NCBI GenBank assembly: GCA_904420175.1
Contig: CAJFUF010000029.1
Span: 62,001-126,000, forward strand
Length of the DNA: 64,000 nt
Direction of reading: 5' to 3'
Origin: Candidatus Schneewindia gallinarum
Lineage (GTDB): Bacteria; Bacillota; Clostridia; Oscillospirales; Ruminococcaceae
This document shows, piece by piece, positions 7,591 through 26,417 of this stretch; positions within the stretch are counted from its first letter, which is position 1; the number at the start of each line of letters is the position of its first letter. A model generated the notes under the pieces. The model worked only from the letters and a program-made list of their open reading frames with translations, had not been told where the DNA came from and ran no database searches. The translations under genes and the position numbers were made by a program.

Positions 7591-7995
7591 ATGAACATTG
7601 CACTGATTGCGCACGACTCCAAAAAAGAACTCATGGTCCAATTCTGCATTGCCTACAGCGGTGTGCTGGCCAGACACAACCTGTGCGCTACAGGTGTGAC
7701 GGGCAAAATGATTTCGGATGCCACCGGCCTGCCTGTGGTGCGGTTTTTAAGCGGCAGCCAGGGCGGCAGCCAGCAGATTGCAGCACGCATCTCCTGTAAT
7801 GAAATCGACGTGGTGCTGTATTTCCGCGACCCGCTGGATGTCAGCGAGCCCAGCACCTCCGACATCTCCACCATCATCCGGCTGTGCGACATGCACAACA
7901 TCCCGGTTGCCACCAACATTGCCACCGGCGAGGTGCTCATCCACGGGCTGGAGCGGGGCGATTTGGACTGGCGCAACATCATCAACCCGAAATAA
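7591..7995 (+). CDS. mgsA: Methylglyoxal synthase
   Basis: Converts dihydroxyacetone phosphate to methylglyoxal and phosphate, a bypass that releases phosphate when sugar phosphates accumulate. The 134-residue product begins [15 protein letters not shown], with the conserved His and Lys. It continues with [22 protein letters not shown] and [11 protein letters not shown], which holds the catalytic-region Asp. C-terminal NIATGEVLI is also typical. The gene follows the MinD-like ATPase gene after 41 bp and is probably cotranscribed with it. Confidence 0.95.
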
Positions 7996-8021
7996 AAAAC
8001 GGGCTGCTTCATACCCTGTTT

Positions 8022-8198
8022 CCGGTTGTGAACGGGAAGGAGTACCGTGCTGTTCCTGCATGGAAAGAGAGGGCCGCCGCGGCTGAAAGCGGCCCCGGGG
8101 CAGGCGCACGGGAAGACATCCCCGGAGCCGGGACGGAGGGCCGCCGTTATCCGGCCGCTTGAGTGGGGCGCGTGCGCCCAACAAAGGGTGGTACCGCG
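8022..8198 (+). ncRNA. T-box leader of the hisS-aspS operon
   Basis: The conserved T-box sequence AGGGTGGTACCGCG is at 8185-8198 and a terminator follows. Upstream, stem I can be folded: 8022-8027 pairs with 8126-8131, and 8045-8050 pairs with 8106-8111. The specifier loop carries the AGTA turn (8041-8044) on its left side and GAAGACATC on its right. Aligned on known glycine T-boxes, the specifier is GAC (Asp, 8115-8117); a His codon CAT overlaps it at 8117-8119. The base after TGG in the antiterminator is T (8192), which can pair with the G discriminator of tRNA-Asp but not the C of bacterial tRNA-His. Uncharged tRNA should favour read-through. Confidence 0.9.
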
Positions 8199-8209
8199 AG
8201 GCGACACAA

Positions 8210-8248
8210 CCTCGTCCCTTTCCGTCGGATGGGGACGAGGCTTTTTTT
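8210..8248 (+). terminator. T-box-controlled intrinsic terminator
   Basis: CCTCGTCCC (8210-8218) pairs with GGGACGAGG (8232-8240) and is followed by a run of seven T. It overlaps the 3' side of the T-box antiterminator region, as expected for a transcription-attenuation T-box. Confidence 0.9.
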
Positions 8249-8288
8249 GTCGGCACGGCAAATGCTAGAAAAAAGGAGAGGAAACACA

Positions 8289-9632
8289 ATGGCACAGAAA
8301 TTCAGCGCACCCCGCGGCACACAGGACCTTCTGCCGCAGGACAGCTACAAATGGCGTTTTTTGGAGCGCCGGCTTATGGAAATTGCGGAGGCCTACGGTT
8401 ACCGGGAAATCCGCATTCCCACCTTTGAACATACGGAGCTGTTCATCCGCTCGGTGGGTGAAAGCACCGATGTGGTGGGCAAGGAGATGTACACCTTTGA
8501 GGACAAGGGCGGCCGCAGCATCACCCTGCGCCCGGAGGGGACGGCCGGCACGGTACGCGCCGCCATCGAGCATGGGCTGCTGGCAGGCGCCATGCCGCTG
8601 CGGCTGTGCTATCTGCTCAGCTGCTTCCGGTATGAGAAGCCGCAGGCCGGCAGGCTGCGGGAGTTCCACCAGTTCGGGGTGGAGTGCTTCGGCGCGGCAG
8701 ACGCGGCTGCGGATGCGGAGCTTATCCACCTTGCGGGCAACATCCTCAGCGGCGTGGGCGTCCGGGATTTAAGCCTTGAAATCAACTCCATCGGCTGCCC
8801 CACCTGCCGGAAGGCCTATCTGGAGAAGCTCAGGGCCTACTTCCAATCGCATTATGACGAGCTGTGCGACACCTGCAAGGGCCGGCTTGAGACGAACCCT
8901 CTCAGGATTTTAGATTGTAAAAGCCCGGTGTGCAAGGCCATTTGCGAGGGGGCGCCGGTTATCGTGGACAGCCTGTGCGACGACTGTAAGGAGCATTTCC
9001 GCCGGCTTCAGGAGTATCTGACCGCCATGGACATGCCCTTCACCGTCAACCCGCACATTGTGCGGGGCCTCGACTACTACACCCGCACCGTGTTTGAGTT
9101 TGTGTCCGGCCAAATCGGCGCACAGGGCACCGTATGCGGCGGCGGCCGGTACGACGGCCTGGTGGAGGAGATGGGCGGCAACCCCACCCCGGGCCTTGGC
9201 TTCGGCATGGGGCTGGAACGGCTGATGCTGGTGCTGGAGGCACAGGGGGTGGAACTACCCGCCCAGCCCACCTGCGACGTGTATCTTGCGGGGATTGGCG
9301 ACGCAGCGTCCCGGCGCGCGTTCCTGCTGGCGCAGGAACTGAAGGAGGACGGGCTGCACGCGCAAAGCGACCTGTGCGGCCGCGGCCTGAAGGCACAGAT
9401 GAAATATGCGGACAAAATCGGCGCCAAATACGCCGTGGTTCTGGGGGATGAGGAACTGCAGAGCGGCACGGCAAACCTAAAAAATATGCTCACCGGCGAG
9501 ACCACGCAGGTGCCCATTGACGGGATCGGCGCGGCGGTGACGGACGGCATTATGGACCGGATGCTGGATGAGATGACGGACGACGTGGATAAGGAAGCGC
9601 TGAGCAAACTGTTTGGAGGAATGATGAAGTAA
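8289..9632 (+). CDS. hisS: Histidyl-tRNA synthetase
   Basis: Class II synthetase that charges tRNA-His. The 447-residue product opens with FSAPRGTQDLLP, contains the class II motif 2 region CFRYEKPQAGRLREFHQFGVE, the histidine-specific VRGLDYYTRTVFEF and the motif 3 segment GLGFGMGLERLM. The ATG at 8289 lies behind AAAAGGAGAGG; the longer frame upstream runs through the T-box. The stop overlaps the aspS start (TAATG), so the two are translationally coupled. Confidence 0.96.
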   Translation: MAQKFSAPRGTQDLLPQDSYKWRFLERRLMEIAEAYGYREIRIPTFEHTELFIRSVGESTDVVGKEMYTFEDKGGRSITLRPEGTAGTVRAAIEHGLLAGAMPLRLCYLLSCFRYEKPQAGRLREFHQFGVECFGAADAAADAELIHLAGNILSGVGVRDLSLEINSIGCPTCRKAYLEKLRAYFQSHYDELCDTCKGRLETNPLRILDCKSPVCKAICEGAPVIVDSLCDDCKEHFRRLQEYLTAMDMPFTVNPHIVRGLDYYTRTVFEFVSGQIGAQGTVCGGGRYDGLVEEMGGNPTPGLGFGMGLERLMLVLEAQGVELPAQPTCDVYLAGIGDAASRRAFLLAQELKEDGLHAQSDLCGRGLKAQMKYADKIGAKYAVVLGDEELQSGTANLKNMLTGETTQVPIDGIGAAVTDGIMDRMLDEMTDDVDKEALSKLFGGMMK

Positions 9633-11410
9633 TGGCAGAGACGATGGGAACGTGGCGGCGCAGCCACTACTGCGGGGAAGTAACCGCGGCGGAAATTGGC
9701 AAGGAGGTTGTGGTGTGCGGCTTTGTGCACAAGCGCCGGGATCTCGGAAACCTGATTTTCCTTGACCTGCGGGACCGGACAGGGCTGGTGCAGCTGGCCT
9801 TTGACAGCAGTGTGTCGCCGGCGGAGTGCATGGAGAAGGCCGCGCACTGCCGGGCGGAATTTGTGCTGATGGCAAAAGGCACCGTCAGGGAGCGGCAGGC
9901 AAAGAATGAGGCGATGAAAAACGGCGATGTGGAGGTGTTTGTCTCCGGGCTGAAAATCCTGGCCGAGGCGGAGGTCCCTCCCTTTGAAATCACCGACAAG
10001 ACCGCAGTAAAGGACGAGCTGCGCTTAAAATACCGCTATCTCGACCTGCGCCGCAGGGAGATGCAGGACGCCATCATCCTCCGGCACAAAATCGTCAAGG
10101 CGGCACGGGACTACTTCGACGAAAACGGCTTTCTGGAGATTGAGACCCCCATCCTGATGAAGTCCACGCCGGAGGGCGCGCGGGACTATCTGGTGCCCTC
10201 CCGGGTGCACCCCGGATCCTTCTATGCCCTTCCCCAGTCCCCCCAGCAGTACAAGCAGCTGCTGATGCTGGCGGGCTTTGACCGGTACATGCAGGTGGCG
10301 CGCTGCTTCCGCGACGAGGATCTGCGGGCGGACCGCCAGCCGGAATTCACCCAGATTGACCTGGAGATGAGTTTTGCGGACGTGGACGACGTCATTGCCG
10401 TGAACGAGGGGTTCATGAAAACCCTGTTCCAGCGTATCATGGGAATGGAACTGACGGTCCCCTTCCGCCGCATCCCCTATGAGGAGGCCATGCGCCGCTT
10501 TGGCAGCGACAAGCCGGACACCCGCTTCGGGCTGGAGTTGACCGACCTGACCGACCTTGTGAAGGACTGCGGCTTCGCCGTGTTTTCCGGTGCGGCCGCC
10601 ACAGGCAGCGTCCGGGCCATCAATGTCAAGGGCGCGGCGAAGGAGCTGACCAGGAAGGAAATTGACAAGCTGACGGAGTTTGTAAAGACCTACGGCGCCA
10701 AGGGGCTGGCCTTCAGCCGCTGGACGGCGGAGGCGCAGTCCAGTTCCTTTGAAAAGTTCCTGACACCGGAGGAGAAACAGGCCATCCACACAAGGATGGG
10801 CTACGAGCAGGGCGACGTGCTGCTGGTGGTGGCGGACGCCAAAACCGGCGTGGTGTTTACCGCCCTCGGCGCACTGCGGGTGGAGCTGGCAAACCGGCTG
10901 CATCTCATCCCGGAAAACAGTTTCGACCTGCTGTGGGTCACCGATTTCCCCCAGTTCGAATACAGCGAGGAGGAGGGGCGCTATGTGGCCATGCATCACC
11001 CCTTCACCGCCCCGCGGGAGGAGGACATCCCCCTGCTGAAAACGGACAAGGCGGCCGTGCATGCCAAGGCCTACGACCTTGTTATCAACGGGTGCGAGGC
11101 CGGCGGCGGGTCGGTACGTATCAACGACCCGGCCCTGCAAACCGCCATGTTTGAGGCACTGGGCTTCACGAAGGAGCAGGCGGTGGCGCAGTTCGGTTAT
11201 TTGATTGAGGCGTTCACCTACGGTGCGCCGCCCCACGCGGGCATGGCCTACGGCCTGGACCGGCTGGTGATGCTGCTGACCGGCAAGGACTCCATCCGGG
11301 ATGTCATTGCATTCCCGAAGGTGCAGAACGCAAGCGAACTGATGACGGCCTGCCCCTCCCCTGTCAGCAAGAAACAGCTGGATGAGCTGGGCATCGCCCT
11401 TAAACAATAA
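9632..11410 (+). CDS. aspS: Aspartyl-tRNA synthetase
   Basis: Class II synthetase of the bacterial type (592 residues, with the extra GAD domain). An N-terminal OB fold binds the anticodon (VVVCGFVHKRRDLGNLIFLDLRDRTG). Motif 2 is seen in CFRDEDLRADRQPEFTQID and motif 3 in GMAYGLDRLVMLL. ATG at 9632 shares one base with the hisS stop. The hisS-aspS pair under one T-box is a known Firmicute arrangement. Whether the enzyme also charges tRNA-Asn is not decided by what I can see. Confidence 0.96.
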   Translation: MAETMGTWRRSHYCGEVTAAEIGKEVVVCGFVHKRRDLGNLIFLDLRDRTGLVQLAFDSSVSPAECMEKAAHCRAEFVLMAKGTVRERQAKNEAMKNGDVEVFVSGLKILAEAEVPPFEITDKTAVKDELRLKYRYLDLRRREMQDAIILRHKIVKAARDYFDENGFLEIETPILMKSTPEGARDYLVPSRVHPGSFYALPQSPQQYKQLLMLAGFDRYMQVARCFRDEDLRADRQPEFTQIDLEMSFADVDDVIAVNEGFMKTLFQRIMGMELTVPFRRIPYEEAMRRFGSDKPDTRFGLELTDLTDLVKDCGFAVFSGAAATGSVRAINVKGAAKELTRKEIDKLTEFVKTYGAKGLAFSRWTAEAQSSSFEKFLTPEEKQAIHTRMGYEQGDVLLVVADAKTGVVFTALGALRVELANRLHLIPENSFDLLWVTDFPQFEYSEEEGRYVAMHHPFTAPREEDIPLLKTDKAAVHAKAYDLVINGCEAGGGSVRINDPALQTAMFEALGFTKEQAVAQFGYLIEAFTYGAPPHAGMAYGLDRLVMLLTGKDSIRDVIAFPKVQNASELMTACPSPVSKKQLDELGIALKQ

Positions 11411-26250: not shown

Positions 26251-26318
26251 GAAATTTTGAGAACGTGCCCCGGTGTATGCAGGGGCGCGCCTCTGCCTGC
26301 ACACACTTCGTTTATGCA

Positions 26319-26417
26319 GCAGCGGGATGCAAAATCCACACCGCGAAACAGGGTTTCTTCGTCCGGTCCGCAACTCCCCGTCGGACCGACACTTGACGCG
26401 TGGATTTTTACTCTGCA
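26319..26417 (-). ncRNA. Tetrahydrofolate (THF) riboswitch
   Basis: Read on the minus strand the leader contains, in order, GCAGAGTA, CCACGCGTCAAGTGT, GACGGGGAGTTG, GGACGAAG, TTCGCGGTGTGG and TGCATCCCGCTGC. These match the conserved blocks of the THF riboswitch, with P1 formed by GCAG/CTGC and P2 by AATCCAC/GTGGATT. It lies between a promoter and folT, where this class is expected. A second hairpin (GTGTGTGCAGG with CCTGCATACAC) follows before the RBS-sequestering stem. Confidence 0.92.

Follow-up and report, generated by a model that had tools for sequence, protein, structure and literature searches.

The T-boxes of hisS-aspS operons carry conflicting labels: in the relevant passages of three papers they are called His-specific (PMC7927825), Asp-specific (cited in PMC5313534) and dual (PMC4342826). 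Gutierrez-Preciado 2009, as cited in a passage of PMC5313534, described overlapping Asp and His codons in these T-boxes and suggested that aspartate is read, and the overlap in hisS-aspS T-boxes is thus already in print. TBDB, in the section of PMC7778990 concerned, is described without discriminator matching for predicted His T-boxes. No published precedent for comparing the overlap with non-hisS control T-boxes was found in the open-access papers searched.

The hisS-aspS leaders of bacilli and lactobacilli, as described in the same passage of PMC5313534, share with the locus studied here the operon, the T-box and the overlapping Asp and His codons (theirs read GACAC), whereas here the codons read GACAU, the bulge is UGGU and the host is a GC-rich clostridial relative. 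A two-codon T-box of Clostridium acetobutylicum for tRNA-Asn and tRNA-Glu (Saad 2013, cited in PMC4052509) likewise has overlapping codons in one specifier loop; according to that citing text both tRNAs are bound, whereas in the present case conservation of the second codon is lacking and nothing suggests that it is used. The lysK T-box of Bacillus cereus, for which an excerpt of PMC2916919 describes induction by tRNA-Lys and, in part, by tRNA-Asn, is similar in its possible response to a second tRNA, but that response was measured, whereas the hisS leader is known here from sequence alone. Among the conflicting labels, the comparison of leaders presented below favours aspartate in this clostridial group.

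Identification and anatomy of the leader

The locus lies in a window of 64,000 nucleotides, by which the whole stretch of DNA analysed is meant. The leader scores 72.6 bits against the T-box model RF00230, below the gathering score of 93, and the default Rfam scan of the window missed it. It was found by rescanning the window with an E-value threshold in place of the gathering score. A search of the leader's own genome with RF00230 gave the leader again, with a genome total of 10 T-boxes at E <= 0.001, and 7 of the 10, the hisS leader among them, are below the gathering score. An earlier note on this DNA had placed the T-box at 8106-8192, a span that takes in no more than its 3' portion. Its positions for GAC, CAT and TGGT were confirmed, and the T-box ahead of hisS-aspS is real. 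The features are listed below, where R1 denotes a stem I covariance model described in the next section.

8019-8222, + strand: T-box leader, stem I to antiterminator (RF00230, 72.6 bits with E 4.3e-16, matched over the whole model, 1-219)
8041-8044, + strand: AGUA, the 5' strand of the specifier loop (loop E) (sequence, aligned to the Rfam consensus AGUA)
8066-8070, + strand: AGAGA T-loop (sequence)
8084-8088, + strand: UGAAA T-loop (sequence)
8115-8117, + strand: specifier codon GAC (Asp) (R1 specifier columns and Rfam alignment)
8117-8119, + strand: overlapping CAT (His), out of register (sequence)
8118, + strand: A after the specifier, the purine that should stack beneath the paired codon and anticodon (sequence)
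from 8124, + strand: GGAGC conserved motif (sequence)
8183-8221, + strand: antiterminator hairpin (fold, -13.8 kcal/mol)
8189-8195, + strand: 7-base T-box bulge UGGUACC (in the fold of 8180-8224 precisely this heptamer is bulged out between two helices)
8210-8240, + strand: terminator hairpin, with a T tract at 8242-8248 (fold of 8180-8250, -28.9 kcal/mol, z -2.73; sequence)
8289-9632, + strand: hisS, histidine--tRNA ligase (TIGR00442, 505.7 bits, over cut-off)
9632-11410, + strand: aspS, aspartate--tRNA ligase (NF001750, 830.4 bits, and TIGR00459, 758.7 bits, both over cut-off; ORF)

The relevant part of PMC7583486 describes the AGAGA and UGAAA motifs as two T-loops that touch the tRNA elbow, and the purine 3' of the specifier as stacking beneath the codon-anticodon duplex. 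In the minimum-energy fold, the third base of the CAT (U8119) is the partner of A8037 within the GGGA/UCCC basal helix, with a pair probability of 0.586. The folded antiterminator and the competing terminator have 8210-8219 in common. The terminator (8210-8248) was absent from the output of a simple terminator scan, and the fold of the whole leader, being indistinguishable from shuffles (z -0.93), was left out of the evidence. As a member of RF00230 the leader shows the covariance match (below the gathering score), UGGN in a 7-base bulge, a competing terminator and amino-acid genes downstream. The start codon of aspS overlaps the stop of hisS.

Directly 5' of the leader lies a methylglyoxal synthase gene (7591-7995, NF003559 over cut-off), and by eye a coding sequence resembling this gene is also found 5' of hisS in several relatives. 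Elsewhere in the window, the Rfam scan gave a tetrahydrofolate riboswitch at 26318-26417 on the - strand (91.7 bits).

Specifier register across related hisS leaders

To avoid circularity, R1 was trained on 27 T-boxes of genes other than hisS; it holds 14 base pairs only, and the alignment behind it was made automatically. A strict T-box pattern tried on 110 hisS loci caught only part of the leaders, and R1 was used instead. The model was applied to 299 hisS loci of related Clostridia and to a further 107 T-boxes, among which were the 27 used for training. A leader was kept if its stem I match was on the right strand and at most 900 bases 5' of hisS. From 88 matches, 2 on the opposite strand (L074, L110) and 2 lying more than 900 bases upstream (L194, L196) were removed, and the remaining 84 came to 80 distinct leaders after 4 duplicates were taken out; six loci (L363-L368) gave no R1 match. 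The controls were reduced to 106 by excluding L373, which reads GAC-AC and has no hisS downstream in its fragment.

In the window's hisS leader, R1 puts GAC, not CAT, in the specifier columns, in what is a weak match (21.2 bits, E 0.0036), and the Rfam alignment likewise sets GAC as the specifier. By R1, the specifiers of the 80 distinct hisS leaders are GAC (69), GAT (1), AAC (9) and GGC (1), and a His specifier, CAC or CAT, stands in register in none of them. The exact R1 columns hold GAC in 64 of the 69, while the other 5 GAC and the GAT sit one base 5', a reading (6 of 70 Asp rows) that was accepted only where GAC or GAT lay there. A HisS tree was made for 76 of the 80 leaders, 4 having too little HisS sequence; with 42 of its rows less than half filled it gives only rough change counts, and the specifier changes between Asp and Asn 5 times on it. 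To the earlier note the leader had seemed tuned to aspartate, and it had named a comparison of hisS-aspS leaders and a covariance-model fold as ways of checking this. The Asp specifier in 70 of 80 leaders and the R1 register support it well, as do the bulge bases described below.

The T-box bulge and the tRNA discriminator base

The tRNA-Asp(GUC) of the genome has the 3' end G-CCA, with G73 as discriminator, and its tRNA-His(GUG) ends in C-CCA, with C73 as discriminator and an extra G ahead of the first base. The base that faces the discriminator in the window is U8192, the last of TGGT (8189-8192), which can meet G73 of tRNA-Asp by wobble and makes no pair with C73 of tRNA-His. Among the 70 Asp hisS leaders, this position carries C in 47 and U in 17 and was not read in 6, and none of the 64 readable ones has A or G, the latter being the base that would pair with C73. 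The 106 controls have U in 87, A in 8, C in 6 and G in 2 (not read in 3). UGGU is accordingly the default bulge, found in 87 of the 103 controls with a readable bulge, and the C that is rare among the controls accompanies Ser, Asn and Trp codons.

Taken alone, the bulge in the window allows tRNA-Asp, by wobble, and leaves C73 of tRNA-His unpaired. At the level of leader sequences, the strong discriminator evidence for Asp is the UGGC of most related hisS leaders, not the UGGU of the window. The earlier note's argument from U8192 therefore pointed in the right direction and was weak for the window by itself, where the base is the common one and pairs only by wobble.

The overlapping His codon and the basal helix

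A CAY codon overlaps the specifier in 57 of the 69 hisS leaders with GAC. It is absent from 13 of the 70 Asp leaders (GACGC 3, GACAG 2, GATAG 1, GACCT 2, GACCC 2, GACGA 2, GACGT 1), so that this second codon is not conserved among the orthologues, and it changes 12 times on the rough HisS tree. The same overlap is present in 42 of the 82 control T-boxes, none of them ahead of hisS, whose specifier ends in C, at rates that vary by codon (GTC 0/6, AAC 4/4, ATC 9/13). In the leader's own genome it occurs in TTC-AT of pheS, CTC-AC of leuA, ACC-AC of thrS and TGC-AC of cysE (gene names assigned by eye). The overlap is commoner in the hisS GAC leaders than in the C-ending controls (Fisher p 6e-5, a value that ignores shared descent). 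Since the hisS leaders are orthologues whose shared descent was left uncorrected, the excess was counted as weak evidence for a leader with two codons.

Directly 3' of the specifier, 90 of the 106 controls have A or G, and at the next position all but one have C or T (105 of 106). The overlap arises because a purine mostly comes next to the specifier and the pyrimidine that opens the basal helix comes after it, and a C-ending specifier with a following A therefore contains CAY. The His codon overlapping the Asp codon looks like a by-product of this T-box layout and not like a second sensor. Because half of the C-ending controls (the 42 of 82 above) carry it, the overlap by itself is no evidence of dual sensing, and caution is needed with schemes that read several frames of the specifier loop. 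The residual or shifted His reading suggested in the earlier note thus found no support, the overlap being missing from some Asp leaders and frequent in T-boxes that have nothing to do with histidine.

Position +5, where the His codon has its third base, is a possible first position of the basal helix in 48 hisS leaders out of 75 and in 68 controls out of 98; for +4 the numbers are 1 and 7, respectively. In constrained folds, which ignore tertiary contacts, the window's leader can form the basal helix GGGA/UCCC (-38.8) or CGGG/CCCG (-38.3), which are 0.5 kcal/mol apart; the former would present GAC-A and the latter CAU-C. The earlier note had allowed that a better stem I fold might place CAT in the specifier position: the helix that shows GAC has the lower energy, but the one exposing CAU is only slightly worse. 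Both registers are possible in 12 of 53 CAY-bearing hisS leaders against 7 of 39 matching controls, and there is therefore no sign of selection for slipping.

Proposed mechanism and alternative explanations

The analysis shows the T-box and its register, the conservation of the Asp codon, tRNA ends that match, and the operon. The leader is very probably a transcriptional T-box riboswitch specific for tRNA-Asp, and it almost certainly reads uncharged tRNA-Asp to switch on hisS-aspS. In the proposed mechanism, the stem I GAC (8115-8117) would pair with the GUC anticodon, with A8118 stacking below, and the 3' end of uncharged tRNA-Asp, G73-CCA, would pair with UGGU (8189-8192), U8192-G73 being a wobble pair. 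This pairing would hold the antiterminator and block the terminator at 8210-8248, and RNA polymerase would then run on into hisS-aspS. Binding of tRNA-Asp and antitermination would be expected and a response to histidine would not, so that aspartate charging alone would set both synthetases. The leader has GAC in register and a U8192 able to pair, by wobble, with G73 of the host's tRNA-Asp. It is best taken as a T-box of the usual kind, within an established class of riboswitches, that reads aspartate.

It is unlikely that the leader is instead a two-codon T-box, in which a slipping basal helix lets it sense both tRNA-Asp and tRNA-His. Both helices exist in the window at nearly equal energy, the overlap is kept more often in GAC hisS leaders than in controls, and PMC4342826, citing Gutierrez-Preciado 2009, mentions in the passage concerned two possible structures and the sensing of both tRNAs. 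Against this, 13 Asp leaders have lost the overlap and yet retain the Asp codon, and hisS leaders with CAY do not have a double register more often than matching controls do. The CAU codon is followed by C and so lacks the stacking purine whose role is described in part of PMC7583486, it would pair with G34 by wobble, C73 of tRNA-His is unable to pair with U8192, and TBDB, in the section of PMC7778990 concerned, states that specifiers with 3'-C are always favoured over those with 3'-U. It is similarly improbable that the basal helix slips by two bases and alternately shows GAC to tRNA-Asp and CAU to tRNA-His; if this were true, a single leader would tune the two synthetases of the operon to aspartate and histidine alike.

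The position of hisS as the first gene, and the label "histidine T-box" given to hisS-aspS in a passage of PMC7927825, would fit a leader that reads tRNA-His only, with CAT as its specifier. This reading is hardly credible, as no hisS leader of the 80 has CAC or CAT in register, no readable bulge of an Asp leader has the G that C73 calls for, and in 13 Asp leaders the His codon is altogether missing at this place. A decayed T-box that senses no tRNA any more would agree with the score below the Rfam gathering threshold and with the weak R1 score, but it is very improbable: the core motifs, antiterminator and terminator are all intact, and most T-boxes of the genome are under the same threshold.

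Other Asp and Asn specifiers

An Asn specifier, AAC, was read in 9 of the 80 hisS leaders (L182, L183, L206, L207, L301, L323, L327, L335, L345). Loss of asnS, the gene of asparagine--tRNA ligase, was considered as the cause and is unsupported: among the genomes examined, asnS is absent from 4 of the 9 whose leader reads AAC and from 4 of the 21 with GAC; gatB was found in 30 of 31 genomes searched. In the hisS leader of L304, the specifier columns hold GGC (Gly), in the context GAACGGCAACC.

A search for Asp leaders of aspS alone, meant as a better control, gave L505 as the sole clear case: its aspS leader, with no intervening hisS, reads GAC-AC and has the bulge UGGC, and this single case speaks for the aspartate reading. 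Of 60 aspS loci read, 53 have hisS in the locus, and the other 7 are without hisS and without a T-box that could be found. The T-boxes ahead of aspS-like genes in L171 and L500 read AAC (Asn), and the aspS relatives downstream possibly encode a non-discriminating enzyme serving tRNA-Asn. By eye, the GAC-AC T-box of L373 has an acetyltransferase-like gene downstream in its fragment, and the coding sequence upstream of it resembles that 5' of the window's hisS leader.
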